Shown here: piece after piece, positions 35,924-51,504 of the stretch
Position numbering within the stretch: the first letter of the stretch is position 1
How the letters are laid out: each line of letters starts with the position of its first letter
Source of the DNA: Hydrogenophaga sp.
GTDB taxonomy: Bacteria > Pseudomonadota > Gammaproteobacteria > Burkholderiales > Burkholderiaceae_C
Direction of reading: 5' to 3'
DNA: 64,000 bases
Assembly (NCBI RefSeq): GCF_011390835.1
Contig: NZ_JAABRQ010000016.1
Coordinates: 1 to 64,000 of the forward strand
The notes under the pieces: generated by a model
Seen by the model: the letters and a program-made list of their open reading frames with translations, nothing else
Database searches by the model: none
Told to the model about the DNA's origin: nothing
Made by a program: the position numbers and the translations under genes

Positions 35924-36352
35924 TCAACGGGCCATCTGGGCGGGGCATCCACCTTGGCTTTCGGTGTTCACCATGTGGTCGGCCATTTGGGCGAAGGTGT
36001 GGATCAGGCCGTCACGCAGATCGGTGTCGATGACCTGCTCGTTGAGCGCTTGTGTCATGCAGAGCATCCACTCGTCGCGCATGCGCTGGTCGATGGCATA
36101 GGGCGCGTGGCGCATGCGCAGCCGCGGATGGCCCTTTTTGGCGATGTAGAGCGAAGGCCCGCCGAACCAGCCCGACAGGAACTCGAACAGACTTTCTGCG
36201 CTGCCTGCCAGGCTCTCGGGGTGGAGCTGCCGAACTGCATAGGCCTCGGGCAGCGTGTCCATGAGCTCATAGAAGCGATTCACCAGGCGATGCAGCGCTG
36301 GCGCTCCACCGAGCGCCTCATAAGGCGTAACGGTTGTTTGAATGGTGGTCAT
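35924..36352 (-). CDS. Group II truncated hemoglobin
   Basis: A 142-residue 2-on-2 globin. The pattern HPRLRMRHAPYAI (about 75-87) holds the proximal His82 and is diagnostic for the TrHbO group. Such globins bind O2, NO or sulfide. Its ATG overlaps the stop of the SQR-like gene (ATGA), so it is translated from the same message as the bd-oxidase/sulfide genes. Confidence 0.92.
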   Translation of the reverse strand: MTTIQTTVTPYEALGGAPALHRLVNRFYELMDTLPEAYAVRQLHPESLAGSAESLFEFLSGWFGGPSLYIAKKGHPRLRMRHAPYAIDQRMRDEWMLCMTQALNEQVIDTDLRDGLIHTFAQMADHMVNTESQGGCPAQMAR

Positions 36353-37485
36353 CGGTATTTCTTCAGGTAAGCACCTTCGAAGAACCGCTTGGCCCAGTGG
36401 AACAGGCGGGTCGAAGGCAGGATGATCTGGCGCTTCGCGTTGCGAAAGACCAGTGTTCCGTGATCAATGGCGTCGATGATGCAAATGAGCTCGACCTTGA
36501 AGGTGGCGTGAGGCGTGTCGCCGCGCAAACCCGCCAGCAGGTTTTCCGCGGCGGCTGCCGCTTGCAGGTCGGCCATGTGGGCCTGCTTGGGCATCCAGTC
36601 CGGACCTGGGAAGCTGCCCGAGTCACCCACGACGTAGACGTGCTCGGTCCCGGCGACACGGCACTGCGCATCGGCCTTGAGCAGGCCACCCGGTGATCTC
36701 GCCAGATCAGTCTGATCGAACCAGGCGTTACCGGTCATACCGGGCATGAACAGGATGAGATCGGCCGGGAACGATCCGCCTTCGGTCAGCACGCGATTGA
36801 ATTCGAACCCCTTCATCTTGTGACCCAGGCGCGTGCGGATGTCGCGACGCTCCATCTCGTCGAGCAGGTGCTGCACCGCCTTGGGGCCGAGCCGGTTCCC
36901 GGGTTCGTTGGACGGATTGAAGAACACCAGCTCGAACTTGTCGCGCCGGCGTTCTCGCCGCAGTTGCTCGTCGATGCCGAAGAGAAACTCGAACATCGGG
37001 CCACCGCGCACCGCGCTGGGTTCGTTCGGGTTGCCGGCAAAGCCCACGGCGATGGTGCCTCCCTGCAGGGCCTGCAAACGATCTCGGATTTTTTCGGCAG
37101 CCGCAATGCCTTCGCAAGGCGTGATGGCGTGCTCGATACCGGGCAGCTTCTTGATGAAACGCCCGCCGCTGGCGATCACCAGGGCGTCGTTGGGAATTTC
37201 ACCACTGGTGGTGTCCACCAGACGACCGCCGTTGCGCAGACCGGTCACCTCGGCCGTCACGTGGCTTACGTTCATGCGCTGGAAGAAATTGTCCAGTGGC
37301 ACGATCAGCTGTTCGCGTGTGCGCAGACCGCTCGGAATCCAGATGATGCCGGGCAGGTAGTGCAGCTCGGCACGGGGTGCGATCAGCGTGATCTCGGCCT
37401 GGGTGTCGCGCCGACGGATTTCTCGAACGCTGGAAAGCGCGCCAAAGCCGGCGCCGATGATGGTGATGCGGGAAGGGGATGTCAT
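36349..37485 (-). CDS. Sulfide:quinone oxidoreductase-like flavoprotein
   Basis: A 378-residue two-dinucleotide-fold flavoprotein of the SQR/NDH-2 group: FAD loop IIGAGFGALSSVREI at the N-terminus, VYVVGDSGSFPGPDW FAD site and an amphipathic C-terminus (LFHWAKRFFEGAYLKKYR) for membrane attachment. Cysteines are Cys124 (ITPCEG), Cys275 and Cys335 (ELICIID). The cysteine normally found between the first and last catalytic ones in SQR is missing, so true SQR activity is uncertain. It overlaps both neighbours by four bases. Confidence 0.78.
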   Translation of the reverse strand: MTSPSRITIIGAGFGALSSVREIRRRDTQAEITLIAPRAELHYLPGIIWIPSGLRTREQLIVPLDNFFQRMNVSHVTAEVTGLRNGGRLVDTTSGEIPNDALVIASGGRFIKKLPGIEHAITPCEGIAAAEKIRDRLQALQGGTIAVGFAGNPNEPSAVRGGPMFEFLFGIDEQLRRERRRDKFELVFFNPSNEPGNRLGPKAVQHLLDEMERRDIRTRLGHKMKGFEFNRVLTEGGSFPADLILFMPGMTGNAWFDQTDLARSPGGLLKADAQCRVAGTEHVYVVGDSGSFPGPDWMPKQAHMADLQAAAAAENLLAGLRGDTPHATFKVELICIIDAIDHGTLVFRNAKRQIILPSTRLFHWAKRFFEGAYLKKYR

Positions 37486-38135
37486 GCGTTGAAGGCTCGT
37501 GGTGTTGGCGCGATTGAGGCGCTGTCCTGCAATGCGGTCACGCGCGCCAGATAGGTGTCGCGCGAGGTCGCGGCAAAAAAGGGGTGCCAGCGCCGCTGCT
37601 CGTGCACCGTGGTCACGGCGCGAGAGTGGCGTTCGTGGCCAGCGAACAGCAGCGTCTCGTCAGGCAGGGTGAAGATGCGTTGCGTCACGCTGTCCCACAA
37701 TGCCTCAGGTTGCGCGGGCTGGGGCTGGTGCGGGCAGGCGTCCACCGACAGCAGGCCGCCGCAGAACACGCGATCGCGCCAGATGAAGCTGATGCAATCG
37801 GGCGTGTGGCCAGGCGTCGCCAGCACCCGCAGGAACTCGTTGCCGAACGGCAACAGCTCGCCGTGCGACACAGTGTGGGCGCCGGGCCGCGCCTCGCCCT
37901 GGATCACCGGGGCCTCCAGCTGGCCAAGCGAGGAAAACTCCAGCGGATGCAGGCCATCGTGATGGTGCGTGCGCAACACCCAGCGCAGGCGCAGGCCACG
38001 CTCAGCCAGCAGAGCCTGCAGGACCGGCAGGTCCGGGCCGTGCGGGTCCACCACCACCGCCTCGCGCGCCTCGACATCGGCCAGCAGGTAGCTCAGCTCG
38101 CTGCGGCGCTCATCGTGCAGGATGCGAAACAGCAC
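37482..38135 (-). CDS. MBL-fold protein, persulfide-dioxygenase-like, altered metal motif
   Basis: A 217-residue MBL-fold protein starting at GTG 38135 with GGGAG seven bases upstream, one base after a tiny ORF. Later metal-site segments are present (TPGHTPDCISF, GGLLSVDAC, FAGHERH), but the usual HxHxDH is replaced by HHHDGLH (57-63). Because ETHE1 dioxygenases bind one iron through the first His, a later His and an Asp, the site could still work. Persulfide dioxygenase is inferred from fold and from its SQR neighbour. Confidence 0.72.
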   Translation of the reverse strand: MLFRILHDERRSELSYLLADVEAREAVVVDPHGPDLPVLQALLAERGLRLRWVLRTHHHDGLHPLEFSSLGQLEAPVIQGEARPGAHTVSHGELLPFGNEFLRVLATPGHTPDCISFIWRDRVFCGGLLSVDACPHQPQPAQPEALWDSVTQRIFTLPDETLLFAGHERHSRAVTTVHEQRRWHPFFAATSRDTYLARVTALQDSASIAPTPRAFNA

Positions 38136-38136
38136 T

Positions 38137-38208
38137 TCAGGGCTCCCAGCGCAAAAGGACGAAGCTCGGCACGAACCCGGCACCGCGCATCCAGATGAAA
38201 AACCACAT
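38137..38208 (-). CDS. CydX-like 23-residue membrane peptide
   Basis: A short frame with a strong ribosome site (GGAG six bases before ATG 38208) between the Rieske gene (18-base gap) and the MBL gene (one-base gap). It begins MWFFIWMRG, matching the M-W-[YF]-F-x-W-x-x-G start of CydX/YbgT, the small third subunit of cytochrome bd oxidase, and is hydrophobic throughout, ending LRWEP. It is shorter than the usual 30-40 residues and has Arg8 in the helix. Assignment rests on the N-terminal motif and the cyd operon. Confidence 0.6.
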   Translation of the reverse strand: MWFFIWMRGAGFVPSFVLLRWEP

Positions 38209-38226
38209 GATGTTCTCCGGCAAGAG

Positions 38227-38844
38227 TCAGGCCGCGCCGGGGCCATCCTCACCAATCAGCAAGGTGCCGTCGGCCAGGTACTGGTGTGGCGGCACCACCA
38301 GGTTGGTGGGCGCTGGTTTGTTCCTGAACACGCGGCCTGCGAAATCAAAGGTCGATCCATGGCAGGGGCAAAAAAAGCCACCCTTCCAGTTGGGTGGTAC
38401 GCTGGCATTGGCCGTGCCTTCGGGCAGGGTCACCGGGGAACATCCCAGGTGGGTACAGATTCCGACGGTCACCAACAACTCGGGCTTGATCGAGCGATGC
38501 GCATTGGTGGCATAAGCGGGTTGCTGTGGCTTTTCAGAATAGGGGTCGGCCAGTCCCTGCATGTCCTCCAGGGTGGTCAACATATCGGGTGTGCGGCGCA
38601 TCACCCACACGGGCTGGCCTCGCCATTCAACGGTTTTGACTTGCCCGGGTGCCACCACTGCGGGATCCATGGACACGCTGGCGCCCTGTGCCTTGGCGCG
38701 CTCGCTGGGGGCAAAACTGGACACGAAGGGCATCGCCACAGCCGCTGTGGCGGCCACGCCCATGGCACTGGAGGCCAGCAGCCAGGTGCGGCGCTGCGGG
38801 TCGCCGGGTGTGATGGGCTGAGGAAAAGTCGGGACGGTTTGCAT
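38227..38844 (-). CDS. Rieske iron-sulfur protein (cytochrome bc1-type), without petB/petC
   Basis: A 205-residue ubiquinol-cytochrome c reductase-type Rieske subunit. A twin-arginine signal-anchor (RRTWLLASSAMGVAATAAVA) is followed by the periplasmic domain with cluster motifs CTHLGC (130-135) and CPCHGSTFD (159-167). AAGGAG precedes ATG 38844. It lies inside a cydAB operon with no cytochrome b or c1 gene, so its electron partner is unknown. Confidence 0.9.
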   Translation of the reverse strand: MQTVPTFPQPITPGDPQRRTWLLASSAMGVAATAAVAMPFVSSFAPSERAKAQGASVSMDPAVVAPGQVKTVEWRGQPVWVMRRTPDMLTTLEDMQGLADPYSEKPQQPAYATNAHRSIKPELLVTVGICTHLGCSPVTLPEGTANASVPPNWKGGFFCPCHGSTFDFAGRVFRNKPAPTNLVVPPHQYLADGTLLIGEDGPGAA

Positions 38845-38918
38845 GTCTGGCTCCTTGCCTTGTGACCGGCGGGCGGGTGAGTTGGCGACGAAGCGCGCAG
38901 TGCATCGTGAGCAATGCG

Positions 38919-39083
38919 CTACGTCTTCAGCGCCAGGCGCAGCAGCATGGCCACGACCAGCAGCGAGCCGATGCTGGCGGCCCAGATACCGGCCATCCAG
39001 AGCAGTCGCTTCCACAAAGGTTGCAGTGGCTCATCGGGGCGGGTGATGCTGATGTCCGGCCAGCGGAAAAAGCGGTTCTTCAT
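38919..39083 (-). CDS. DUF2474 small membrane protein of bd oxidase operon
   Basis: A 54-residue protein with one C-terminal membrane helix (LLWMAGIWAASIGSLLVVAMLL shortened: LLWMAGIWAASIGSLLVVA) and a basic N-terminus (MKNRFFRW). DUF2474 proteins typically follow cydB of the CIO type. Its ATG overlaps the cydB stop by four bases. Confidence 0.82.
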   Translation of the reverse strand: MKNRFFRWPDISITRPDEPLQPLWKRLLWMAGIWAASIGSLLVVAMLLRLALKT

Positions 39084-40084
39084 GCGTGGTACCCGTCCGC
39101 ATTGACCTTTCCGCGGAATACCCAGTAGGACCAGGCGGTGTAGCCCAGGATCATGGGCAGAACCAGGGCTGTTCCCCAGAGCATGAAGATTTGCCCGCTT
39201 CGATCGGTGGCCGCGTCCCATATCGTCACGGCGCCCGGCACGATGTAGGGAAACACGCTGATGCCCAGGCCGACGAAGCACAGCAGGAAAATGCCCAGCG
39301 TCAGCAGGAATGGGGCAACCTCATGGCCTGCCCTGAGGCTGCGCACGAAAGCCGCGCTGGCCAGCGCCACCAGGATGGGTACCGGTGCCACCCACAGGAT
39401 GCTGGGCCAGTTCAGCCAGTTGCTGAAGTAGTCTGCGCTCAGAAACAGGGTCGCAATGCTGACCGCGACGATGGCGGCCAGGCTGGCGCCACCCAGCCAC
39501 CAGGCCATGGCCCGGGCCTGGCGCTGCAGAGCGCCTTCGGCCTTCATCACCAGCCAGGTGGATCCCAGCAAGGCATAGGCTGCCACCACGCTCGCGCCGG
39601 TGAGCAACGAGAAAGGTGTCAGCCAGTCCCACCAGCCGCCGGCGTACGCCCGTCCGCTGATGGCCACCCCCTGCAGCAACGCACCCAGGATGACGCCCTG
39701 CGAGAACGCGGCGAGCAACGATCCGCCTGTGAACGCGAAATCCCAGAAACCCCGGTGCGCAGGATCGCGCCAGCGGAACTCGAACGCCACACCCCGGAAC
39801 ACCAGGGCCAGCAACATCGCGATGATGGGTGCATAAAGGGCGGAGAAGATCAGGCCGTAGGCCAGCGGAAAGGCCGCCAACAGCCCGCCACCGCCCATCA
39901 CCAGCCAGGTTTCGTTGCCGTCCCACACGGGCGCGATGCTGTTCATCGCGGTGTCCCGGTCGTGTCCCACCTGGAAGGTGTTGAAAAGGATGCCGATGCC
40001 CAGGTCGAAACCGTCCAGCACCACATAGATGAAGACGGCCACCACAATGATGAGGGCCCAGATGATGGTCAGATCGATGTTCAT
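39080..40084 (-). CDS. cydB: Cytochrome bd ubiquinol oxidase subunit II (CIO type)
   Basis: A 334-residue subunit II with eight to nine helices; the N-terminal YVVLDGFDLGIGIL and the VWDGNETWLVMGGGGLLAAFP stretch (VWDGNETWLV) are family hallmarks. Start ATG 40084 (MNIDLT), ten bases after cydA. Works with CydA to reduce O2 with quinol, without proton pumping. Confidence 0.95.
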   Translation of the reverse strand: MNIDLTIIWALIIVVAVFIYVVLDGFDLGIGILFNTFQVGHDRDTAMNSIAPVWDGNETWLVMGGGGLLAAFPLAYGLIFSALYAPIIAMLLALVFRGVAFEFRWRDPAHRGFWDFAFTGGSLLAAFSQGVILGALLQGVAISGRAYAGGWWDWLTPFSLLTGASVVAAYALLGSTWLVMKAEGALQRQARAMAWWLGGASLAAIVAVSIATLFLSADYFSNWLNWPSILWVAPVPILVALASAAFVRSLRAGHEVAPFLLTLGIFLLCFVGLGISVFPYIVPGAVTIWDAATDRSGQIFMLWGTALVLPMILGYTAWSYWVFRGKVNADGYHA

Positions 40085-40094
40085 GGTGATCCCC

Positions 40095-41507
40095 TTATTT
40101 GGTGGCCAGCACACCGGGCCGCAGCGCCACAGCGGGCGTGGTGCCGGCTGCGAGCGCGGGGATGTTGGGAGGGGCAGACTCATGCTCAACGGGTGGCTTG
40201 GCCATCAGCTTGAGGATGTAGATCACCCCGGCGCCGAACACCGCGAAATACACGACCACGAAGGCCACCAGCGATACCGCCACAGCGGGAGCGGCAAGTG
40301 GTGAGGCTGACTCCGCCGTGCGCATCAGCCCCTGGATGGTCCAGGGCTGGCGGCCCACCTCGGTGGTGATCCATCCAGCAAGCACCGCGATCAAACCCGA
40401 CGGGCCCATCGCCAGGGCGAAGCGATGCAGCCACTTCCACTCGTACAGCCGTCCCCTGGCGCGGGCCCACAAGCTGAACATGCCCAACCCGGCCATCAGG
40501 AAGCCCAGCCCGACCATGATACGAAACGCCCAGAACACCGTGCCCACCGGTGGGTGGTCAGCCACAGGCACGGCGTCCAGTCCTGTCATGGGAGCGTTCA
40601 GATCGTGCTTGAGGATCAAAGAGGACAGCTTCGGGATTTCCACCGCGTAGTCCACACGGCCTTCGGCGCTGTTCGGAATGCCAAACAGGATCAGCGGCGC
40701 ACCTTCGGGATGGCTCTGATAGTGACCTTCCATCGCCATCACCTTCACGGGCTGATGTTCCAGCGTATTCAGGCCATGCATGTCGCCCAGCACGATTTGC
40801 AGCGGCGCCACGATGGCCGCCATCCACATCGCCATGGAAAACATGAGGCGCGCGCGCGGGTTGGTGCGGTCCTTCAGCAGGTGCCAGGCACCCACAGCGC
40901 CCACCAGGAACGCGGTGGTCAGGTAGGCCGCCGAGAGGGTGTGCACCAGCCGGTAGGGAAAGCTGGGGTTGAAGATGATGGCCAGCCAGCTGCCAGCGGA
41001 AATGAACTGACCATTGGCGTTCATCGCGTAGCCCGCTGGGGTCTGCATCCAGCTGTTCACCGACAGGATCCAGAAGGCGGAGACAAAAGTGCCCAAAGCC
41101 ACCATCAGTGTGGCGGTGAAATGCAGTCGTTTGCCCACCCGGTTCATGCCGAACAGCATCACGCCCAGGAAACCGGCTTCGAGGAAGAAGGCGGTCAGCA
41201 CCTCATAAGCCATCAGCGGACCAATGATCGGGCCAGCCTTGTCGGAGAACACTGCCCAGTTGGTACCGAACTGATACGACATGACGATGCCCGAGACCAC
41301 CCCCATGGCGAACACCAGCGCGAAGATCTTGATCCAGTAGCGGAATAGGTTCATGTAGTCCGCGCGCCCGGTCTTTAGCCAGAGGCCTTCGAGCACCGCC
41401 AGGTAACTGGCCAGACCAATCGTGATGGCGGGAAACAGGAAGTGGAAACTCACCGTGAACGCGAACTGGATTCGCGCCAGCAGCAGCGCGTCGGTTACAT
41501 CAAACAT
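40095..41507 (-). CDS. cydA: Cytochrome bd ubiquinol oxidase subunit I (CIO type, short Q-loop)
   Basis: A 470-residue subunit I with about nine helices. His22 (FHFLFP) matches the b595 ligand and the YRLVHTLSA histidine the b558 ligand; the GRQPW motif is present (TTEVGRQPWTI). The Q-loop is short, as in cyanide-insensitive oxidases. bd oxidases are known to resist sulfide, which fits the sulfide genes downstream. It is transcribed divergently from the FisR-like gene and is preceded by a sigma-54-like element. Confidence 0.95.
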   Translation of the reverse strand: MFDVTDALLLARIQFAFTVSFHFLFPAITIGLASYLAVLEGLWLKTGRADYMNLFRYWIKIFALVFAMGVVSGIVMSYQFGTNWAVFSDKAGPIIGPLMAYEVLTAFFLEAGFLGVMLFGMNRVGKRLHFTATLMVALGTFVSAFWILSVNSWMQTPAGYAMNANGQFISAGSWLAIIFNPSFPYRLVHTLSAAYLTTAFLVGAVGAWHLLKDRTNPRARLMFSMAMWMAAIVAPLQIVLGDMHGLNTLEHQPVKVMAMEGHYQSHPEGAPLILFGIPNSAEGRVDYAVEIPKLSSLILKHDLNAPMTGLDAVPVADHPPVGTVFWAFRIMVGLGFLMAGLGMFSLWARARGRLYEWKWLHRFALAMGPSGLIAVLAGWITTEVGRQPWTIQGLMRTAESASPLAAPAVAVSLVAFVVVYFAVFGAGVIYILKLMAKPPVEHESAPPNIPALAAGTTPAVALRPGVLATK

Positions 41508-41618
41508 CTTGGGGTCCTTGCGTCATTCGGGGCTTGTCTGAATCTGCTCTGCAGTCTGAAGCGGCCCGCATTCGGGGTCTGTGCGACGGGCAACGGAAAT
41601 ATTCATCACCCATTGCTT

Positions 41619-41634
41619 ATCAAGATCCGTGCCT
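41619..41634 (-). promoter_or_regulatory. Sigma-54-like -24/-12 element upstream of cydA
   Basis: The minus strand reads AGGCACG-N4-TTGAT against consensus TGGCACG-N4-TTGC[AT], two mismatches, one in the conserved -12 GC. It is about 112 bases before the cydA ATG and 87 bases from a palindrome that could be the activator site. Confidence 0.5.
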
Positions 41635-41720
41635 CGCGACCGCGCACGGAAAAGCGCAATGAATTCAATGGTCTTTCGACAGAGCCCGCCAGGGGGTTTC
41701 TCTGCCACTGCCGCCAGCAC

Positions 41721-41764
41721 TGCCATTTTTGGCAGAGAATGCCAGTGGCTCGCCATTTTTGACC
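41721..41764. promoter_or_regulatory. Candidate FisR-type enhancer (UAS) between cydA and the regulator
   Basis: TGCCATTTTTGGCA (41721-41734) is a perfect TGCCA-N4-TGGCA palindrome. A degenerate copy, CGCCATTTTTGACC, starts exactly 30 bases later (41751), about three helical turns, and TGCCAGTGGC lies between them. The same 14-bp palindrome, reverse-complemented, is found upstream of the second oxidase operon at 51491-51504. The site is 18-60 bases before the regulator's start, so it may also autoregulate. Confidence 0.6.
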
Positions 41765-41781
41765 ATACCCCGGAACACGCC

Positions 41782-43146
<1,365 letters not shown>

Positions 43147-43238
43147 ACGGGAGCGCTCTGCGTCTCTGGCCCTGCGTCTACCCCATAGCGCTTCCGCCCT
43201 ATTCAAATTACCATGTGCGCATATTCGGATCAAATATC

Positions 43239-44012
43239 ATGAAGACATTCTTCGCGTTTGGTGAGCAGGTAGACGGTTACCCGGTGCGGGTGGTCAACGA
43301 GCGGGCGGTGCGCGCCGCGGCGGGTCTTCTTTTCGTGGCCGCCATGGCCTCGTTCATGAACGCCTACCTGCTGGGCAACTACCAGCCCACGCGGCTGTTC
43401 GTGATCGTGTTTCTGACCGACATGAGCCTGCGCATGGTCAACCCGCGCTGGGCACCCAGCATGATCGTGGGGCAGTGGATCGTGCGCAATCAGAACCCGG
43501 AGTGGGTGGGTGCACCGCAGAAGCGCTTTGCCTGGGGTCTGGGCTTGCTGCTGGGCCTGACCATGTTGTACCTGATGGTGCTGCACCAGATGATGGGGCC
43601 GTTGAACATGCTGGTCTGCGGCAGTTGCCTGACCCTGATGTTCTTTGAATCGGCGTTTGGCATCTGCCTGGGCTGCAAGCTCTACAACCTGTTCAGCCGC
43701 GACCAGGCTCAGCTGTGCCCGGGCGGCGTGTGCGAGGTGCCGGCGAAGCCGCGCTTTGGTCTTGGCCTGAGTGTCGCGCAGATGGCGGTGCTGGTGGCTT
43801 TTGCGGGCAGCATGGTGCTGGCCTCGCGCTGGGTCGACCAGACCGGTGGCTCACTGGGCGGCTTCGACGACATGGCCACCGTTGAGGAAATGGGGCTCAG
43901 CGCTTCGGCCGGCGCGGCCGGCTCCGCAGAGGCCGGGCGCTGCGAGGTGCCGGCTTTCGCCCGCTGGCTGGGTCACGAAGCGCAGTGGAAGCAGCACAAC
44001 CACTGCAACTGA
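43239..44012 (+). CDS. DUF4395 membrane protein with cysteine motifs
   Basis: A 257-residue inner-membrane protein with about four to five helices. The DUF4395 core has a CGSC pair (VCGSCLTLM), then GICLGCKLYNL, and CPGGVCEVP after the third helix; it ends in HNHCN. DUF4395 is often near rhodanese and thioredoxin-like genes, so a role in sulfur or thiol handling is possible, but function is unknown. It lies 92 bases behind the FisR-like gene on the same strand. ATG 43239 (MKTFFAFG) chosen over ATG 43215. Confidence 0.75.
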   Translation: MKTFFAFGEQVDGYPVRVVNERAVRAAAGLLFVAAMASFMNAYLLGNYQPTRLFVIVFLTDMSLRMVNPRWAPSMIVGQWIVRNQNPEWVGAPQKRFAWGLGLLLGLTMLYLMVLHQMMGPLNMLVCGSCLTLMFFESAFGICLGCKLYNLFSRDQAQLCPGGVCEVPAKPRFGLGLSVAQMAVLVAFAGSMVLASRWVDQTGGSLGGFDDMATVEEMGLSASAGAAGSAEAGRCEVPAFARWLGHEAQWKQHNHCN

Positions 44013-44066
44013 CCAGCACGCCATCGTCCGACCTGCGAGCGCACAAGGCTGCCTGGGGCTGGACCG

Positions 44067-45404
44067 TCAATCCGGGCTGCGCAGCTTTTCGTGGATGCGG
44101 CGGGTGGTGCGCCAGGCACCCCACAGCACCAGCGGGATGAAAGCGCCAGCCAGGATTTCCGGGTTGATGGGCAGGCCAGCAGCCTTGCCCGCCTTGCCCA
44201 GATACAGCAGCAGACTGACCACGTAATACGAAATGGCCGCGATCGACAGGCCTTCCACCGTGGCCTGCAGGCGCAGCTGCATTTCCTGGCCCCTGGTGAG
44301 CTTCTCCAGCAGCTGCTGATTCTGCACTTCGGTCGCGATGTCGACCCGTGTGCGCAGCAAGGCACTTGCCCGGCTGATGCGCTCGGACAGCGAGGCCAGC
44401 CGTTGCGCGGTGGCGGCCACCGTGCCCATGGCAGGCGAGAGCCGGCGCTGCATGAACTCGCCAATGGTCTGCGTGCCCGGGATCGGCTGCTCGCGCAGTT
44501 CGGCGATGCGCTGGACCACCAACGCGTCGTAGGCCCGGGTGGCGGCGAAACGGTAGGCGTGCTCCGCGGTGGCCCGCTCCACGCCGGCGGCCAGCGACAC
44601 CAGCGTGTCCAGCAGGGCCTGGTCGGTCGCGCCCTTGTTCTCCAGCTGGGCGGTGATGTCGGCCAGCTGCCGCTCACTCTCCGCGAGCAGCGGCCCCAGC
44701 TGCTTGGCCACCGGCAGGCCGCGCAAGGCCATCAGCCGGTAGGTCTCGATCTCCAGCAGGCGCTGGGAGATGCGGCCGGCCCGGGTTTCGGTGGTCTCAG
44801 GCGGCGCGACCACCAGCATGCGCTCAAAACCGCTGTCACGCAGCATGAAGTCGGTGGCCACGATGGAGTGGCCGTTGTTGCCCATCTGCGAGGCCACCAC
44901 CGTGTGCTCGCCGAGCCAGGTGCGCGCCAGCGCCAGGGTCTGCTGCGGCTCGCTCAGGTCGCCGTGCAGCATGATGAGCTTGATCGCGACGAAGGTGCGA
45001 CCCGGGATCGAAGCCAGCCAGTCGGCCGGCAACACCAAGTGCGACAGCAGCTCGGGGTCGCGCGTGCCCAACCGGGCCTCCTCGGGCAGCGGCTGCACCA
45101 GCGAGTAGCGGCTGAACTCGGTGTGGCGCTCCCACTTGAGCGTGTAGCCCGGCAGCCGCAAGCGCAGGAAGTGGCCTTGCAGGTCGGCCGGCGTCAGGCT
45201 TTCCTGGCCGGGCAGGCTGCGCAGGTGCTCGCACTCCTGCTCGCGGCTGATGCCGTCATTGAAAACCGCCACAAACACCACCAGCGCCGGCAGGCGGATG
45301 CGCGCTGGCGGGCGGGCGTGCACCTCGTTGTGCAGCTCGATGCGCAAGGCATCGTCGGCTGGCAGGGGTCGGTAAGAAGTGGGCTGGGATTGCATGGTTG
45401 GCAT
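44067..45404 (-). CDS. DUF3422 family inner-membrane protein
   Basis: A 445-residue protein with a soluble N-terminal part beginning RIELHNEVHARPP (the family signature), a central coiled-coil-rich region (about 210-370) and two C-terminal membrane helices with a short basic tail. Function of the family is unknown. It begins 21 bases behind the methyltransferase gene, so it may be the last gene of the c-type oxidase operon. Confidence 0.85.
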   Translation of the reverse strand: MPTMQSQPTSYRPLPADDALRIELHNEVHARPPARIRLPALVVFVAVFNDGISREQECEHLRSLPGQESLTPADLQGHFLRLRLPGYTLKWERHTEFSRYSLVQPLPEEARLGTRDPELLSHLVLPADWLASIPGRTFVAIKLIMLHGDLSEPQQTLALARTWLGEHTVVASQMGNNGHSIVATDFMLRDSGFERMLVVAPPETTETRAGRISQRLLEIETYRLMALRGLPVAKQLGPLLAESERQLADITAQLENKGATDQALLDTLVSLAAGVERATAEHAYRFAATRAYDALVVQRIAELREQPIPGTQTIGEFMQRRLSPAMGTVAATAQRLASLSERISRASALLRTRVDIATEVQNQQLLEKLTRGQEMQLRLQATVEGLSIAAISYYVVSLLLYLGKAGKAAGLPINPEILAGAFIPLVLWGAWRTTRRIHEKLRSPD

Positions 45405-45425
45405 TGTGCAGGCAGAAGCGGTCCT

Positions 45426-46028
45426 TCAGCCAGGAGCCTGGCCCAACCAGCGGGTGGTGTGCGCCAGCCCCTGGTGACCCGGTCCCTCGTCCAGCACCAC
45501 CTCGCCCTGCCAGGCCAGCGCCTCCTCAAGCAAACCCGCAAAGTCGTCCCGCAGCAACTCGGGGGTGAACAGCATGGCTGGGTCCTTTGGACCCCCGCTG
45601 CGATGCTGCAGTTGCTGTGGATGAAAACCTTCCAGCAGCAACCAGCCGCCCGGACGCAGGGCAGCAGCCAGGCGCTTGTGCGCCCCGACCCGGATGGCGG
45701 CCGGCAAATGCACGAACACCAGCACCACCGCGTCGAAACAGGCAGGTTCCGGCTCCCAGTCCGCGAGGTCGCCGAGCACGGTGCGCAGCTCGACCCCGCG
45801 CTCGCTGGCGAGCGACTGCGCCTTGGTCAGGCCCACGGCAGAGCCGTCCATGGCCGTGACCCGGTGACCCTGCTCGGCCAACCAGACACCGTTTCGGCCT
45901 TCACCGTCCCCTGGGACCAGCACATCGCCACCCGGCCTGAAGCGCACCTGCTGCTCCACCAAAAAAGCGTTGGGTGCGACGCCGTACTTGTAGCCGCTGA
46001 TGGAAAAGCTCTGATCCCAGAAGTTCAT
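45426..46028 (-). CDS. SAM-dependent methyltransferase (TehB-like)
   Basis: A 200-residue class I methyltransferase starting MNFWDQSF, with YGVAPNAFLVEQ, the SAM loop VLVPGDGEGRNGVWLAE and TAMDGSAVGL. This N-terminal layout is common in TehB-like enzymes that methylate tellurite or thiols. It starts ten bases after the cytochrome c4 stop and is probably part of that operon; a thiol or sulfide substrate is speculation. Confidence 0.8.
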   Translation of the reverse strand: MNFWDQSFSISGYKYGVAPNAFLVEQQVRFRPGGDVLVPGDGEGRNGVWLAEQGHRVTAMDGSAVGLTKAQSLASERGVELRTVLGDLADWEPEPACFDAVVLVFVHLPAAIRVGAHKRLAAALRPGGWLLLEGFHPQQLQHRSGGPKDPAMLFTPELLRDDFAGLLEEALAWQGEVVLDEGPGHQGLAHTTRWLGQAPG

Positions 46029-46038
46029 CGCCAGCAGT

Positions 46039-46842
46039 CTACCGATTGCGCTCGGGCAGATCGGCGTAATAGGTCGCCAGTGCCTCAATTTCAACGCGCG
46101 TGAGCTTTTTCGCAAAGGTGCTCATGCCCTTGGCCGCGTCGTTCGAACGCACGCCGCTCTGGTAGTCGAGCAGGGTGCGGGTGAAGTACAGCGGGTTCTG
46201 CCCGGCCAAGGCCGACGCTTCCAGCTTGCCGCCCTGACCTTTCACACCATGGCAACTGGCGCATGGTGTGAGAAGGCGTGAGGGGTCGCCCTTGCGCACC
46301 AGCTGCGCTGCGCTCATGCCCTCACCTCGGGGTGAGGGGCGCGGCGTACCGTCGTCGCCCGGTGCCGGCAAGCCGGCGTAAAACGCCGAGACATCGGCGA
46401 TCTGCTGCGGCGTCATCATGACGGCAATGTCGTGCATAAGTTCTGCCCGCTTGCCCTCCAGTCGCAGCCGGCTCTGGTAGTCGAGCAGCATCTTGGCCGT
46501 ATAGGCCGATTTCTGACCGGCCAGGTGCGGCCAGTTCTGGGTGGGCGCCACGCCGTTGTCGCCATGGCAGGAGGCGCAGAACAGCTGCTGGTTCACTTCC
46601 CGCCCGCGCACCGCGTCACCGGCCGGCAACGCCGCCAGGGCGTGGCGCAAGGTGGCGGGCGTCCAGCCTTTCGCAGCGGCGCTGTCGGTCGATTCGGTGG
46701 CCAGCGCACTGCCAGCCGACAGACCGATCAAAAAAGCGACGGCTGAAAAAGCGACGGCGGCGAAAGCGATCGCGCCGAGCGATCGACGAAGCAGGCCATC
46801 GGTGGCTGCCGCCAGTTCTTCCAGGTAAGGATCGTGGGTCAT
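46039..46842 (-). CDS. Diheme cytochrome c4-type protein
   Basis: A 267-residue membrane-anchored or exported protein: one N-terminal hydrophobic helix (about 22-48), then two cytochrome c domains with CASCH at 89-93 and 194-198. Both repeats share the pattern GQxxxYTxxxLLDYQSR-like sequence (KMLLDYQSRLRL, RTLLDYQSGVRS) typical of cytochrome c4. It probably carries electrons from the flavocytochrome to the oxidase encoded upstream. Fourteen bases behind the flavoprotein gene. Confidence 0.92.
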   Translation of the reverse strand: MTHDPYLEELAAATDGLLRRSLGAIAFAAVAFSAVAFLIGLSAGSALATESTDSAAAKGWTPATLRHALAALPAGDAVRGREVNQQLFCASCHGDNGVAPTQNWPHLAGQKSAYTAKMLLDYQSRLRLEGKRAELMHDIAVMMTPQQIADVSAFYAGLPAPGDDGTPRPSPRGEGMSAAQLVRKGDPSRLLTPCASCHGVKGQGGKLEASALAGQNPLYFTRTLLDYQSGVRSNDAAKGMSTFAKKLTRVEIEALATYYADLPERNR

Positions 46843-46856
46843 GGGACGGATTCCGT

Positions 46857-48224
46857 TCAGGTGAAACAGTCGGCGGTGAAGGTGCGCAACCAGGCCTGCT
46901 GGTAGCGGGCGCCGAGTTTGATCTGGGCTGGCGTGGCGCTCAGCGGCAGGTAGCGCTGCTTCGTGTTGATGCGTGTGATCTTGCCGTCAACGATCTTGAA
47001 GACGTCGGCAACAAACAGGCCATAGTCCTTGCCGGCCAGCGCGTAGCAGGTGTTCTCCCACAGGGGCTCAGGCGCGCTGCGCCCAGCCAGTTCCTCGACG
47101 ATGGCGCGCGCCACCACCTTGGCCTGGTTGTTGGCGGAGAAACCGCTCTTGGGCATGGCGTCCGCAATACAGGCGTCGCCAATCACATGCACGTTGGGCT
47201 GCAGCGTGGAAGCAAACGTGCGCCGATCCACCGGGCAGAAGCCGCTGCCATCGGCCAGTCCCAAGGTCATGGCGACCTGCCCGGCCCTCATGGGCGGAAT
47301 GACGTTGATCACATCGGCCTTGATGGTCTCGGCCTCGGTCTCGATGCGCATGTTCTTCGAATCGATCTTGAGCGTGCGGCCTCCGTCCTTGCCACGCACC
47401 CAGCTCAGCATGCTGGTGCCGCTGTGCTGCTTCACCTCCACCTGATCCTGCATCTTCTGCACGTAGTCGGTGGGAAGGTTGAACTTGTAGAGCCGGTTCC
47501 AGCCCAGCATCATGGTCTGGTCGGTCACGAAGCTGTCTTTCGGGTCGACGATGATGACCTTGGCCGTCGGGTTGTGCTTCGCGAACCACTCGGTCATGAG
47601 CGCGGCGCGCTCGTAGGGGCCGGGCGGACAACGGTAGGGGTTGGGTGGCGCCGCGATGACGAAGGTGCCGCCCTGGCGCATGCCTTGCAGCTGCTTGGCC
47701 AGCAAGGCGGTTTGCTCGCCAGGAATCCAGCCCGAAGGCACGGCGGTGCGCGCCACTGACTCGCTGTAACCGGCGTAGTTTTCGTAGAGCAACTGGATGC
47801 CAGGGGAGACGACCAGTCGGTCGTAGGCGATCTTCTGCCGGCCAGCGGTGTTCACGGTGCGCGCGACCGGGTCGAAGCCGGTTACGGTGTCGAACACGAA
47901 GTTGATGCCGTAGGTGCTTCGCAGCGCGTCGTAGCTCACCTGGAGTTCGTCCATGGTGGCGTGCTGGTTCAGCACCTCGCTGGAGCCATACGGCCGCACA
48001 TAGACCGGGTTCTTCTCGATCACCGTGACCTTGAGCGACGGGTTGAACAGCTTGAGGTATTTTGCCGTGGTGGCACCCCCCACCCCGCCACCAACGATGA
48101 CGATGCGGGCGGTCCCGGCGGCAAACGACAGACTGGGCGCCGCAGCCACCGAAAGCAGGCCGAGGGCCTGCGTCAGCCAGTCGCGACGCGACAGGGATGA
48201 CTTGGAAAGATCAGCGTGGGCCAT
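46857..48224 (-). CDS. fccB: Flavocytochrome c sulfide dehydrogenase flavoprotein subunit (FccB-like)
   Basis: A 455-residue Tat-exported flavoprotein (SRRDWLTQALG signal, FAD loop IVIVGGGVGG). Cys199 (YRCPPGPYER) and Cys330 (GFCPVDRRTF) match the redox disulfide of FccB. The cysteine that binds FAD covalently is replaced: the region reads VYVRPYGSSEV (74-84). AAAGGAGG lies six bases before ATG 48224, which overlaps the cytochrome stop by one base. It should oxidise sulfide to sulfur and pass electrons to the cytochrome c proteins beside it. Confidence 0.88.
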   Translation of the reverse strand: MAHADLSKSSLSRRDWLTQALGLLSVAAAPSLSFAAGTARIVIVGGGVGGATTAKYLKLFNPSLKVTVIEKNPVYVRPYGSSEVLNQHATMDELQVSYDALRSTYGINFVFDTVTGFDPVARTVNTAGRQKIAYDRLVVSPGIQLLYENYAGYSESVARTAVPSGWIPGEQTALLAKQLQGMRQGGTFVIAAPPNPYRCPPGPYERAALMTEWFAKHNPTAKVIIVDPKDSFVTDQTMMLGWNRLYKFNLPTDYVQKMQDQVEVKQHSGTSMLSWVRGKDGGRTLKIDSKNMRIETEAETIKADVINVIPPMRAGQVAMTLGLADGSGFCPVDRRTFASTLQPNVHVIGDACIADAMPKSGFSANNQAKVVARAIVEELAGRSAPEPLWENTCYALAGKDYGLFVADVFKIVDGKITRINTKQRYLPLSATPAQIKLGARYQQAWLRTFTADCFT

Positions 48225-48685
48225 CACTGACCTCCTTTGGATGCGGGTGCCGCCTGGGGCGGGACGGCAACGAAAAAGTCGCCCATGGCGCGAATCTCGG
48301 TGTCGCTGAAGCCCTGGGCCACGTGGCTCATGAGCGTGGCCGGACGTCGACCTTCACGAAAGTCGGTCATGGTGGTCACGAACTGGCGCACCGGCATGCC
48401 GGCCAAGGGCATGAAGGACTCGTCGCCTAGTCGGCCCAGCGTGCCGTGGCAGGCGGCGCAGCCGTGGGCCATCATTTCGCCCGAAATCAGCGGCTCGCTG
48501 GCCGGGGGTGCGGTTGCGGCTGCAACGGTCACCGGGATGGACGAGGTCTGCGCGATGGCCCGCACCGCCAACGTGGCCACCGAAGTGGCACCGAGTGCCA
48601 CCAGAAGAGTCCAGACCAAGACCTGGCGCCACGGCAGCGACGGGCGCACCGGTGGCAAGGTCGACATGTCGAGTGGTTGTTTCAT
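48224..48685 (-). CDS. Membrane-anchored monoheme cytochrome c
   Basis: A 153-residue protein with an N-terminal membrane helix (about 21-45) and one c-type haem site CAACH (76-80). The motif GFSDTEIRAMGDFFVA is that of the cytochrome subunits of flavocytochrome c and c4-like proteins. It lies one base behind the oxidase subunit and overlaps the FccB start, so it is probably the haem partner of that flavoprotein. Confidence 0.88.
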   Translation of the reverse strand: MKQPLDMSTLPPVRPSLPWRQVLVWTLLVALGATSVATLAVRAIAQTSSIPVTVAAATAPPASEPLISGEMMAHGCAACHGTLGRLGDESFMPLAGMPVRQFVTTMTDFREGRRPATLMSHVAQGFSDTEIRAMGDFFVAVPPQAAPASKGGQ

Positions 48686-48686
48686 A

Positions 48687-49910
48687 TCAGCGGGCCCAGA
48701 CGTAAAAGCCAACGGCGAAATACAGCACGGTCCAGGCCACCAGCAGGCCGACCGACCACTGCCCGATGCGGGTCACGGCGGGGCTGGGGGTGTACAGGCC
48801 CTTGCTCTGGCCGGCCTGCCACGCAACGGTGAGCAGGTAGGCCAGCGTGACGCCGCCGACGACGCCGAAGGTGACGAAAAACAGCGAAGTGCTGTACCAG
48901 TCCATGTTGATTCGGTAGTCCATGGCGTCATAGCCGTGGCTGCCCAGCAGGGTCACAAAGCGCAGCATCTCGCGCGCAGCGCCTACGACGATCAAGCCCA
49001 CTGCGCCGGCACCGAAGATGCCGTACCCCCAGACGCCGCTGTCGATGCGGTCCCGCAGCACCAGCGGCAAGGCCACCACGGCAAGCAGGGCCACGAGCGC
49101 CACCAGCATCCAGACCGAGGTCGCGAACCAGGCCATCTTCTCGGGCAGGGTCAGCATCCAGACCGCACCGATCAGCACCGAGACCACGCCACCGACCAGC
49201 ATCAGCCGCTGGGCCAGGCTGCGCACCCAGCCCAGGTAGGCCGAATCGGCTTCGTTGGCACCTTGCAAGTAGCGGCGGTAGCCGTACAACCAAGCGCCCG
49301 TGACCGGGGCCGACAAGGCAATGAAGAACAGAAAGCGCGGCAGGTTCCAGTAGTGCAGCGAATGGCCATTGGGGTTGACCACACCTTTGGGGGCATACCA
49401 TGCCATCCACTGCTCGGGGAACAGCATCTGGTTGGTCAGGCTGTGCACGATGAAGCCCACGGCCAGAAGCAGGGCCAGCGACAGCAGCATCCAGATGCCA
49501 CCGCGCCCGCCATCGGCCACGATGTCGTGGTTTTTCCAGTAGAAGATGTACATCGCGATGTAGCCGGCGATCAACAAGGCGATGAAGCCGATCACCCACC
49601 AGGCCGAGAGCACGTTGGACGTGTACCAGAACGGGTCGTAGACCACCTGCACGAACAGCAGTGGCGCCACACCGATCACGATGGCCACCGACACCGCGAT
49701 CTTGGCGGTGATCAGCATGGCGGCGGCCAGGCGGCGCCAATGGGTGCTGGCGCTGAAGGCGCCGCGCAGCGTGAGCGAGGCAGCACCCAGCATCACGTGC
49801 ACCGCCGCCATGTGCAGCGCGAAGGTGAGAACACCCAGCACCAGGAACACCAGCGGATGGGACGGTACACCGGCCTGATCGCGCAGCGCATAGAGCATTT
49901 CGGGGGTCAT
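48687..49910 (-). CDS. Membrane subunit II partner of the cytochrome-c-linked bd-type oxidase
   Basis: A 407-residue inner-membrane protein with about ten helices, no c-type haem motif, and conserved-looking segments such as FALHMAAVHVMLGAASL and VYDPFWYTSNVLSAWW. It is encoded four bases behind the subunit I gene, in the place CydB would occupy, but it is only distantly CydB-like. I assign it as the second membrane subunit from position and topology. Confidence 0.75.
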   Translation of the reverse strand: MTPEMLYALRDQAGVPSHPLVFLVLGVLTFALHMAAVHVMLGAASLTLRGAFSASTHWRRLAAAMLITAKIAVSVAIVIGVAPLLFVQVVYDPFWYTSNVLSAWWVIGFIALLIAGYIAMYIFYWKNHDIVADGGRGGIWMLLSLALLLAVGFIVHSLTNQMLFPEQWMAWYAPKGVVNPNGHSLHYWNLPRFLFFIALSAPVTGAWLYGYRRYLQGANEADSAYLGWVRSLAQRLMLVGGVVSVLIGAVWMLTLPEKMAWFATSVWMLVALVALLAVVALPLVLRDRIDSGVWGYGIFGAGAVGLIVVGAAREMLRFVTLLGSHGYDAMDYRINMDWYSTSLFFVTFGVVGGVTLAYLLTVAWQAGQSKGLYTPSPAVTRIGQWSVGLLVAWTVLYFAVGFYVWAR

Positions 49911-49914
49911 GGTC

Positions 49915-51306
49915 TTACTCCTTGGCCGCGGTCGTGACGGCGGGCGCCTGGACCGTGCTCACCGTCGGGGTGGGCGACAGCGTGACGATGAAGCTCGCGA
50001 GCGCGCGGGCCTCGTCATCGTTGAAGGGGATTTGCGGCATGTACAGGGTGTTGCCACCCGACAGCGCCGCCTGCAGGTACTCGGCCACCTCGGCCTCGGT
50101 GTGGGTGCCGGTGAAGTAGTTGCGCAGCGGGCGGATGCCGGTGCTGCTCAGCGAATGACAGTTGGAGCAAGTGTTGAGCGCCAGCAGCCGACCAGCTTCA
50201 ACGCGGTTGCCGTCGTCTATGGCGCGCAGCGCCTCGGGCACGAACACCAGCGTCTTCATGAAACCGTGCGCCTCAATGGTCGGAATCTCGGACTTCACGC
50301 CCATGCCCGGTACGTCGCGACCGATCACCTGATTGGAATACACATACTGGCCAGCCACCCAGGGCTTGCGGATGGATTCGCGTGCCACCTCTTCGGGCCA
50401 GAGACCAAAAACCAGCACCGCCACCGTCATGACCGCCGCCAGGCTGGACACCAGCGCACGTGGCTGCACCAGCGTCAGGATGAAATAGGCCAGCGTGCCC
50501 GCCACCACGCTCAGCAGCGCCATGGGGAAGTGCGCTGGCAAGCGGTTCTGCAGCACCACGTCGGCCGTCTCGGGCAGCGTGGCGAGGTACCACTGCAGCA
50601 TGCCTGCCCCGGCCAGCGTAGCGACGATACCCAGCCAGGCCAACTTGGTCGCGATGCTTTTCTTCAGCGCGGCGTCCTTGAACTGGCCGGCCACGATGCC
50701 GCCCACCACCGCCGTCATGGTAAACATGAACGCGGTCCGCATGCCCAGCTGGGCGAAGGTGTTGGGGCCGTAAAAGGCGTTGAGCACACCGCCGGTCTCG
50801 CTCCATGCCGCTTTGCCCGGCCACATCATGAAGCTGAGAATGCCCACAATGACCAGCATGGTCGTGTATGAGGTCAGGCCGAAGATCAGCGAGATGCGGG
50901 TGTGGGTTTTCACATCCACCTTGCCGACCAGGTAGATCAGCATGTAGACGCCGACCACCTCGATCACGAAAAACACCCATTCGGTGGCCCACATCCAGAC
51001 GAAGCTGTGGATCAGCGCCGAAATGCCGCGCGGGCTGGCCACCGTGGTGGAGTACCAGATGCCCGGGCCGGTGATGGAGCCCAGCACGTAGCTGAACACC
51101 AGCAGGAACAGCCCGTAGCGCTTGATGAATTCAAGCAACTCGGGCTTGTTGTGGCGATGCGCGTGGTTGGTCAGCCAGGCAAAGAAAATCGCCGCGCCAA
51201 CCGAGGTGTGCGAAAACAGCACGTGGATCGTGGCGATGAAACCGACGATCCAGCCACTACCCACGCCTGGCTCAAACCAGGTGGGATACAGACCGAGCAT
51301 GTCCAT
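49915..51306 (-). CDS. bd-superfamily oxidase subunit I fused to a cytochrome c domain
   Basis: A 463-residue protein: nine helices with CydA-like features (FATIHVLFSHTSVGAA region with His28, and ESIRKPW at 310-316 in place of EVGRQPW), then a C-terminal cytochrome c domain with CSNCH at 380-384 and a likely distal Met423 (LYMPQIP). Such c-domain fusions form a separate class of the bd superfamily and are expected to take electrons from cytochrome c rather than quinol. First gene of a five- to seven-gene operon with FccB and cytochromes; ATG 51306 or 51300. Confidence 0.85.
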   Translation of the reverse strand: MDMLGLYPTWFEPGVGSGWIVGFIATIHVLFSHTSVGAAIFFAWLTNHAHRHNKPELLEFIKRYGLFLLVFSYVLGSITGPGIWYSTTVASPRGISALIHSFVWMWATEWVFFVIEVVGVYMLIYLVGKVDVKTHTRISLIFGLTSYTTMLVIVGILSFMMWPGKAAWSETGGVLNAFYGPNTFAQLGMRTAFMFTMTAVVGGIVAGQFKDAALKKSIATKLAWLGIVATLAGAGMLQWYLATLPETADVVLQNRLPAHFPMALLSVVAGTLAYFILTLVQPRALVSSLAAVMTVAVLVFGLWPEEVARESIRKPWVAGQYVYSNQVIGRDVPGMGVKSEIPTIEAHGFMKTLVFVPEALRAIDDGNRVEAGRLLALNTCSNCHSLSSTGIRPLRNYFTGTHTEAEVAEYLQAALSGGNTLYMPQIPFNDDEARALASFIVTLSPTPTVSTVQAPAVTTAAKE

Positions 51307-51368
51307 GAACTTGTCTTCCTCAACGAAACTGCTGCGGGGGAATGCCCACCAGCATGTCAGGAGGAAAT

Positions 51369-51384
51369 CACAAGAAGCGTGCCA
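51369..51384 (-). promoter_or_regulatory. Sigma-54-like -24/-12 element upstream of the c-type oxidase operon
   Basis: The minus strand reads TGGCACG-N4-TTGTG: the -24 half is perfect and the -12 half has TTG with C replaced by T. It is about 63 bases before the ATG and some 93-107 bases from the palindromes at 51477-51504. Confidence 0.55.
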
Positions 51385-51476
51385 GCGCTCAGGCGGAGAA
51401 AAAGTGTTTAAAAATCAAATACTTGCGTACGAATCACCGCAGAGCAGCCTATTTCGCTCGCGCCGAATCCGTCGGA

Positions 51477-51504
51477 TTGGCAGACATGTCTGCCAAAAAT
51501 GGCA
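51477..51504. promoter_or_regulatory. Overlapping palindromes, candidate FisR-type enhancer
   Basis: TTGGCAGACATGTCTGCCAA (51477-51496) is a perfect 20-base palindrome. TGCCAAAAATGGCA (51491-51504) overlaps it and is the exact reverse complement of the palindrome between cydA and the FisR-like gene. Confidence 0.6.

Follow-up and report, generated by a model that had tools for sequence, protein, structure and literature searches.

The question raised by this locus is whether a single FisR-type regulator controls two operons that could carry respiration while sulfide is present. The locus lies in a 64,000-nucleotide stretch of contig NZ_JAABRQ010000016.1 (the whole of which we call the window), part of the genome of a Hydrogenophaga-like bacterium (G000; 3,667,303 bases in 68 contigs). 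Here, plus-strand fisR stands between the minus-strand operon 1 (cydA-cydB-DUF2474-Rieske-MBL-FAD oxidoreductase-truncated globin; MBL, metallo-beta-lactamase fold) and the minus-strand operon 2 (orcA-orcB-cytc-fccB-c4, in which orcA and orcB are names coined in the present analysis). Haem-copper oxidases are the usual target of sulfide, and cytochrome bd of Escherichia coli is reportedly established as sulfide-tolerant (Korshunov 2016 and Forte 2016, as cited elsewhere). An earlier note, made from the DNA sequence, had described two minus-strand operons flanking a FisR-like activator and sharing their control sites; gene calls and Pfam matches agree with this description, which is confirmed, and its interpretation is partly supported. 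We consider it likely that FisR, probably switched by sulfane sulfur, binds TGCCA-N4-TGGCA and activates both a bd quinol oxidase operon and a self-contained sulfide-to-oxygen chain. The parts are of known kinds, and what would be new is the function proposed for one branch of the bd superfamily.

Shared sites and promoters before the two operons

The shared palindrome is an exact 16-mer, TGCCATTTTTGGCAGA, that has exactly two copies in the window, at 41721-41736 (+) and 51489-51504 (-), one before each operon. Together with a further half-site it makes up the putative FisR site of operon 1 (41721..41764), and together with a second palindrome that of operon 2 (51477..51504). When up to three mismatches were allowed, the 16-mer had three matches in the window against 0.50 expected, a number reached by 1 of 100 shuffles. 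An open reading frame for fisR spans 41581-43146 (+); the start conserved among relatives maps to the TTG at 41782, which places the operon 1 palindrome in an intergenic region. Downstream of the palindromes stand minus-strand -24/-12-like boxes, containing AGGCACGGATCTTGAT within 41616..41640 for operon 1 and TGGCACGCTTCTTGTG within 51362..51390 for operon 2, and the host genome encodes rpoN. A search for the canonical sigma-54 pattern TTGGCAC-N5-TTGCW with up to two mismatches gave four matches in the window, fewer than the 13.4 expected by chance. It missed both boxes because their -12 element is GA or GT instead of GC. The boxes being weak by the canonical consensus, the sigma-54 case rests on their conservation among relatives. 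Evidence from this single genome for both sites and boxes is modest.

Across the host genome TGCCA-N4-TGGCA occurs in 14 places, compared with four for a reversed-pattern control, and the spacer is AAAA or TTTT in three of the 14, namely both window sites and one on contig C44. At this last place (C44:44494-44518; L087, L093) a palindrome of the same type, TGCCAAAAATGGCACGCATCTTGAA, overlaps a -24/-12-like box; it was rejected as a third site, as no downstream target is evident. Four other palindromes were inspected (L077, L081, L082, L083) and set aside, since they lie inside coding sequences (soxX, bchL, flagellin-like and ccoG-like); the identities of soxX and bchL were confirmed. BchL scores above its NCBIfam cut-off on contig C9 (L081:722-1645), a sign of bacteriochlorophyll synthesis. 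A type I sqr on C46 was also rejected as a third target, its contig having no palindrome and its upstream region none by eye.

To compare site and promoter together, a composite score was used, the sum of mismatches to the palindrome and to a promoter, TGGCAY-N5-TTG, 70-150 bp downstream of it. Each 400-bp region was set against 200 dinucleotide shuffles, and p<=0.01 was counted as a pass. Of 147 relatives, 43 gave a match to the R domain of FisR, and from these 40 stretches were taken; the FisR-side rows were the window, L036-L075, L139-L155 and L156-L234. The count left out loci that had less than 200 bp upstream or shared an identical upstream sequence. The region beside FisR passed at 39 of 46 loci in which the R domain is at least 55% identical, and at 6 of 13 loci with a more distant FisR.

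The orcA side gave a comparable picture. Among 79 named orcA loci (the best of 190 confirmed stretches), two of which were short of upstream sequence, the region upstream of orcA passed at 14 of 18 loci with FisR at least 54% identical in the same stretch versus 13 of 59 without it. This FisR-linked set extends to Chromatiaceae, where TGCCATCAATGGCA or TGCCATCCATGGCA is found in Thiohalocapsa and Thiocapsa along with a box whose -12 element has GC. FisR, cydA and orcA occur together in one stretch at 6 of the 18 FisR-linked loci (three Hydrogenophaga, Limnohabitans, a Hydrogenophilales metagenome-assembled genome (MAG) and Rubrivivax albus), so that the arrangement seen in the window is borne out by comparison. 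Both promoters pass in Hydrogenophaga L156, L157 and L158 (FisR side via duplicate L048) and in the Hydrogenophilales MAG (L185). L156, a Hydrogenophaga MAG, is the nearest named relative by OrcA (97%) and carries both operons around FisR. In Tibeticola (L162) FisR and orcA lie on two contigs, with p 0.000 on the orcA side and p 0.020 on the FisR side. In the stretch with orcA and FisR designated L040, the 16-mer search gave a site on the FisR side only.

The promoters have further features in common. An integration host factor (IHF)-like site with at most one mismatch lies between palindrome and -24 element in 19 of 29 promoters (27 orcA promoters passing the composite test and both window promoters), compared with 3.8 expected, and none of 200 shuffled sets attained the observed mean. 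Fifteen of these 19 sites lie 40-42 bp above -24; operon 2 of the window has a perfect match, AATCAAATACTTG, within 51400..51435 (-), at 41 bp. In addition, the distances from palindrome to promoter, taken from all rows with composite p<=0.01, group near 86-90, 97-101, 110-111 and 119-123. They are phased at 10.5-11 bp in two sets of 45 and 27 (R 0.63 and 0.70 at 10.5), the phasing being weaker on the 25 unique distances (R 0.45, p 0.006 at 10.5 bp; p 0.0005 at 11). Helical phasing of this kind would be expected if looping activation acts from one helix face.

Several results weigh against FisR control of both operons through these sites. Neither operon's promoter was matched by the canonical search, and operon 1 lacks a good IHF-like site (two mismatches, p 0.40). 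Seven of the 46 loci beside a close FisR fail the composite test (L043, L056 at p 0.025, L061, L072, L153 at 0.020, L155 at 0.040, and L168), and the rows compared are phylogenetically related. Among more distant loci with FisR beside an SQR (sulfide:quinone oxidoreductase) gene, the palindrome is missing at four of six in the composite test (L067, L070, L073, L074). Four of the 18 FisR-linked orcA loci also fail (L165, L168, L173, L194); L165 has the promoter box and no close palindrome, and at L173 the site and box stand before an upstream Rieske gene instead (L147). Of the six loci with both oxidases, Limnohabitans (L168) passes at neither promoter and Rubrivivax albus (L194; FisR side via L148, on the same contig) on the cyd side only, and because of these two we lowered our confidence in the explanation to a level that we would still call likely. 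A search of 18 genomes, 16 of which had been selected for orcA, gave a FisR match in 13. One genome, G463, has the orcA promoter, and the FisR search gave no match in it; among five genomes of genus g105 with orcA and no promoter, FisR is absent in four and matched at 39% in one. Finally, many orcA units, such as those of Thiomicrorhabdus and Halothiobacillus, have neither a nearby FisR nor the promoter, indicating that FisR control is not general.

FisR and its probable signal

Window FisR (41782..43146, +) has a PAS-like R domain, a sigma-54 AAA+ domain and a Fis-type helix-turn-helix, all found by Pfam and supported by alignment. A C-x10-C-x6-C triplet is kept in 37 of the 38 rows of the FisR cluster alignment, from which L039, L043 and L072 were left out, having been lost at gene picking. 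The exception, L075, is a response-regulator-like protein. We take the spacing of C53, C64 and C71 in Cupriavidus FisR to be that of this R-domain triplet. The gene is divergent from an operon with a conserved sigma-54-type promoter; the sulfide enzymes of that operon are non-canonical, and the other target is the flavocytochrome c sulfide dehydrogenase (FCSD) unit. A DUF4395 gene follows fisR.

The homologue in Cupriavidus metallidurans CH34 is 51% identical, has the cysteine triplet and is encoded divergently from genes for proteins like persulfide dioxygenase (PDO) and SQR, both of which score under their NCBIfam cut-offs. The intergenic region there contains TGGCACGGGTTTTGAG and, by eye, TGCCAAGTTGGCA; the spacer of this palindrome is 3, so the N4 pattern gives no match. 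In L067-L070, L073 and L074 a type I SQR gene adjoins FisR. Together with C. metallidurans, these neighbours tie the regulator to known pdo/sqr targets; the FisR regulon of Cupriavidus pinatubonensis JMP134 is likewise said to have targets of the pdo/sqr type (Li et al. 2017, as cited elsewhere). From the cysteine triplet and these relatives, we infer that the signal is persulfide or sulfane sulfur.

As in the FisR regulons of C. pinatubonensis JMP134 and Acinetobacter baumannii, to the extent that the available parts of those accounts describe them, a sigma-54 activator is divergent from sulfide-oxidation genes; unlike those regulons, with their pdo/sqr-type targets, the one described here has bd oxidases and an FCSD unit as its putative targets. 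Levels of cydAB also rise with sulfide in A. baumannii, but FisR of that species lacks the cysteines and cydAB is not given as a FisR target in the sections consulted of that study (PMC7315123). Among the papers searched, no title or opening of an abstract describes FisR control of bd oxidases or an orc-fcc unit; the full texts of Murali 2021 and Li 2017 may say more. Partial accounts of CioRAB of Chromobacterium violaceum (PMC11837568) and CydE of Alishewanella (PMC6096048) describe a comparable pairing of a sulfide-resistance bd oxidase with its own regulator. Those systems differ in having MarR- or GbsR-type regulators and one oxidase, and no sulfide dehydrogenase is named in them.

The regulon could instead answer mainly to low oxygen or to another haem poison, such as nitric oxide or cyanide, sensed by FisR, the sulfur genes being secondary. 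Operon 1 does encode a bd oxidase resembling the cyanide-insensitive oxidase (CIO) and a truncated globin, proteins of kinds that are linked to nitric oxide and cyanide tolerance, and in one genus the paralogous orcA loci have FNR-like boxes in place of the FisR site. Nevertheless, the sensor domain of FisR is PAS-like, has a cysteine triplet that is conserved, and is not of the GAF/iron type found in NorR. In other bacteria the regulator adjoins genes for SQR or for PDO-like proteins, and a sulfide dehydrogenase unit makes up operon 2. We consider this alternative improbable, the least probable of those weighed here, and retain sulfane sulfur as the probable signal.

Operon 1 and its bd quinol oxidase

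All genes of operon 1 lie on the minus strand. The bd quinol oxidase is represented by a short, CIO-like subunit I (cydA, 40095..41507; PF01654), subunit II (cydB, about 39080..40090; PF02322) and, after cydB, a small subunit-like DUF2474 protein (about 38919..39113; Pfam). Next is a Rieske protein that lacks a cytochrome b partner (38227..38847; TIGR01416 above cut-off), and then come an MBL-fold, PDO-like protein with an altered iron site (37482..38162), an SQR-like FAD oxidoreductase missing one redox cysteine (36349..37485), both assigned by sequence comparison, and a truncated globin (35924..36352; PF01152). Orphan Rieske genes of this kind are common beside FisR, being found in 15 of 40 FisR loci as well as in the window.

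The left operon behind the FisR site varies among relatives, encoding a CIO-like CydAB (window, L036, L037, L058), a second CydAB type nearest to E. coli CydA models (L038, L040, L041, L045, L046, L048; also L148, L153, L154, L155) or no oxidase. That the bd type can change while the promoter stays the same is an argument that the regulon needs a bd oxidase. With the second type, an octahaem-like cytochrome (Pfam Cytochrome_cB) is encoded in L040, L041, L045, L046, L048, L153 and L154, and a cytochrome b561 in most.

It was also considered whether operon 1 is a functioning SQR-PDO path, as the earlier note had supposed in claiming a quinol-linked route of sulfide oxidation. Two of its proteins are similar in sequence to SQR and persulfide dioxygenase, and the neighbouring genes for them recur in several relatives. 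However, the redox cysteine of SCFGPAYEF is missing in all five aligned members of the SQR-like family, which thus does not keep both cysteines. We take His, His and Asp to be the iron ligands of persulfide dioxygenases; in the PDO-like family HxHxDH is shortened and the Asp is replaced by Gly in 12 and by Cys in 1 of the 16 rows listed, being kept in 3, and the window protein has Gly. Moreover, type I SQR is encoded elsewhere in the host genome (C46), on the contig devoid of the palindrome. The quinol-linked path is therefore not upheld and we regard it as unlikely, and the claim of sulfide-oxidation genes in both operons survives for the FccB unit of operon 2, the SQR-like and MBL-fold proteins being catalytically non-canonical. 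With these residues lost, operon 1 is better read as encoding a quinol oxidase that is sulfide-proof, together with accessory proteins. The SQR-like and PDO-like pair (36349-38162), both members lacking canonical catalytic residues, is kept together in relatives.

The orc unit and a candidate sulfide:oxygen chain

Operon 2 comprises, all on the minus strand, orcA (49915..51306), for a bd-superfamily subunit with a C-terminal haem-c domain (CSNCH); orcB (48687..49910), for a second membrane subunit of bd fold; a gene for a monohaem, membrane-anchored cytochrome c (48224..48712; sequence and a weak NCBIfam match); fccB (46857..48227), for the flavoprotein of FCSD (Pfam and comparison with solved FCSD); and a gene for a dihaem c4-like cytochrome (46039..46842; profile matches). 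A methyltransferase gene and a DUF3422 gene come after. Like FccB of FccAB, the window FccB has the FCSD flavoprotein domains and both active cysteines, with the monohaem and dihaem cytochromes as its cytochrome c partners; unlike FccAB as known, it is encoded with a bd-superfamily oxidase.

That each operon is led by a bd-type oxidase, as the earlier note had it, holds for CydA of operon 1 and, by fold, for OrcA, which is a distant relative. Window OrcA has no Cyd Pfam match, and hhalign comparisons of OrcA with CydA and with OrcB were not significant. The assignment of OrcA to the bd superfamily rests on Cyd Pfam matches in 20 of 48 homologues and on the fold comparison, in which bd subunits are the best matches to predicted structures of OrcA and OrcB. 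About 300 of 456 CydA positions align, the OrcA model shows short loops (the quinol loop being compared at the level of the model and not of residues), and a CxxCH haem-c site is present in all 48 homologues. OrcA is thus predicted to be a distant bd-superfamily relative with a fused haem-c domain. To our knowledge, no electron donor has been defined for the cytochrome-c-type branch of this superfamily. We presume that OrcA falls in the branch termed OR-C. Like OR-C (Murali et al. 2021 via PMC10839748 and PMC11707229), it has a predicted bd fold and a fused haem c, and it may also be without a long quinol loop; in the parts consulted of those two accounts, FCSD linkage and FisR control go unmentioned. 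Alternatively, OrcAB may be no oxidase at all and may resemble other membrane haem complexes in relaying electrons between the membrane chain and FCSD; we think a relay unlikely and continue with OrcAB as a predicted oxidase.

The unit is conserved beyond its FisR linkage. Of 399 genomes of the family, 22 had an orcA match, five of them via the cytochrome domain only. Among the 79 named loci, 39 are from taxa that we take to be sulfur oxidisers (Thiobacillus, Thiomonas, Halothiobacillus, Thiomicrospira, Thiomicrorhabdus, Hydrogenovibrio, Thiothrix, Thiocapsa, Thiohalocapsa, Thioalkalivibrio, Guyparkeria and kin). The unit is also present in Sutterella, Duodenibacillus and Marinobacterium, which do not fit this pattern, and one orcA record is labelled Deltaproteobacteria. 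At all 59 testable loci, those in which over 6.5 kb of sequence lies to the right of the start of orcA, orcB, fccB and c4 are present with orcA (tblastn E<=1e-6, with fccB identity as low as about 35%). The fccB gene comes after orcA in 55 and before it in four (Halothiobacillaceae and Guyparkeria). Plasmid relatives of fccB, 70 records, are every one below 60% identity.

Two variants of the unit were observed. In L118, L120, L122 and L123 an FNR-like box, TTGATATAGATCAA or near it, replaces the FisR site before a 52-53% identical orcA paralogue, which seems to be a sister oxidase under oxygen control. In Paenacidovorax caeni (L142, L219) the orc operon stands behind a sigma-54-type box, with CIO-like cydAB (49/46% identical) after it in the same orientation; here both bd types may be co-transcribed.

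Taken together, the idea of one regulator for two paths stands in so far as comparison places a single FisR between two sigma-54-type, bd-led targets, one of which has FCSD. In the mechanism that we propose, sulfane sulfur probably modifies FisR through the three R-domain cysteines, and FisR would bind TGCCA-N4-TGGCA and activate both sigma-54-type promoters by DNA looping, aided by IHF at many of them. Operon 1 would then supply the bd quinol oxidase, along with the Rieske protein, the globin and the altered SQR/PDO-like proteins, and the oxidase would keep the quinone pool oxidised while sulfide blocks haem-copper oxidases. From operon 2, FCSD would oxidise periplasmic sulfide, the cytochromes c would carry its electrons to OrcAB, and OrcAB, as a bd-superfamily enzyme of the cytochrome-c type, would reduce oxygen.

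A cytochrome-c-type bd relative fed by FCSD is the main new proposal. In its fullest form, orcAB-cytc-fccB-c4 would be a dedicated, quinone-independent sulfide:oxygen oxidoreductase in which FCSD feeds OrcAB directly. It would be common among sulfur oxidisers of the beta- and gammaproteobacteria, and in some of them persulfide would switch it through FisR along with a bd quinol oxidase, to give a respiratory chain that is coordinated and sulfide-proof; we put the case for this full form at evenly balanced. The presence of fccB at every testable orcA locus contrasts with section 24 of PMC6382920, the part consulted, where a comparison of fccAB contexts made by that study reportedly turned up no neighbours that are conserved. 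If the proposal is right, the layout of palindrome, often an IHF-like site, and TGGCAY-N5-TTG promoter would predict further FisR targets. It would also give a testable donor and role to a branch of the bd superfamily known mainly from genomes, a poorly understood class of oxidases, and would define a route of sulfide respiration that bypasses quinone, bc1 and haem-copper oxidases.

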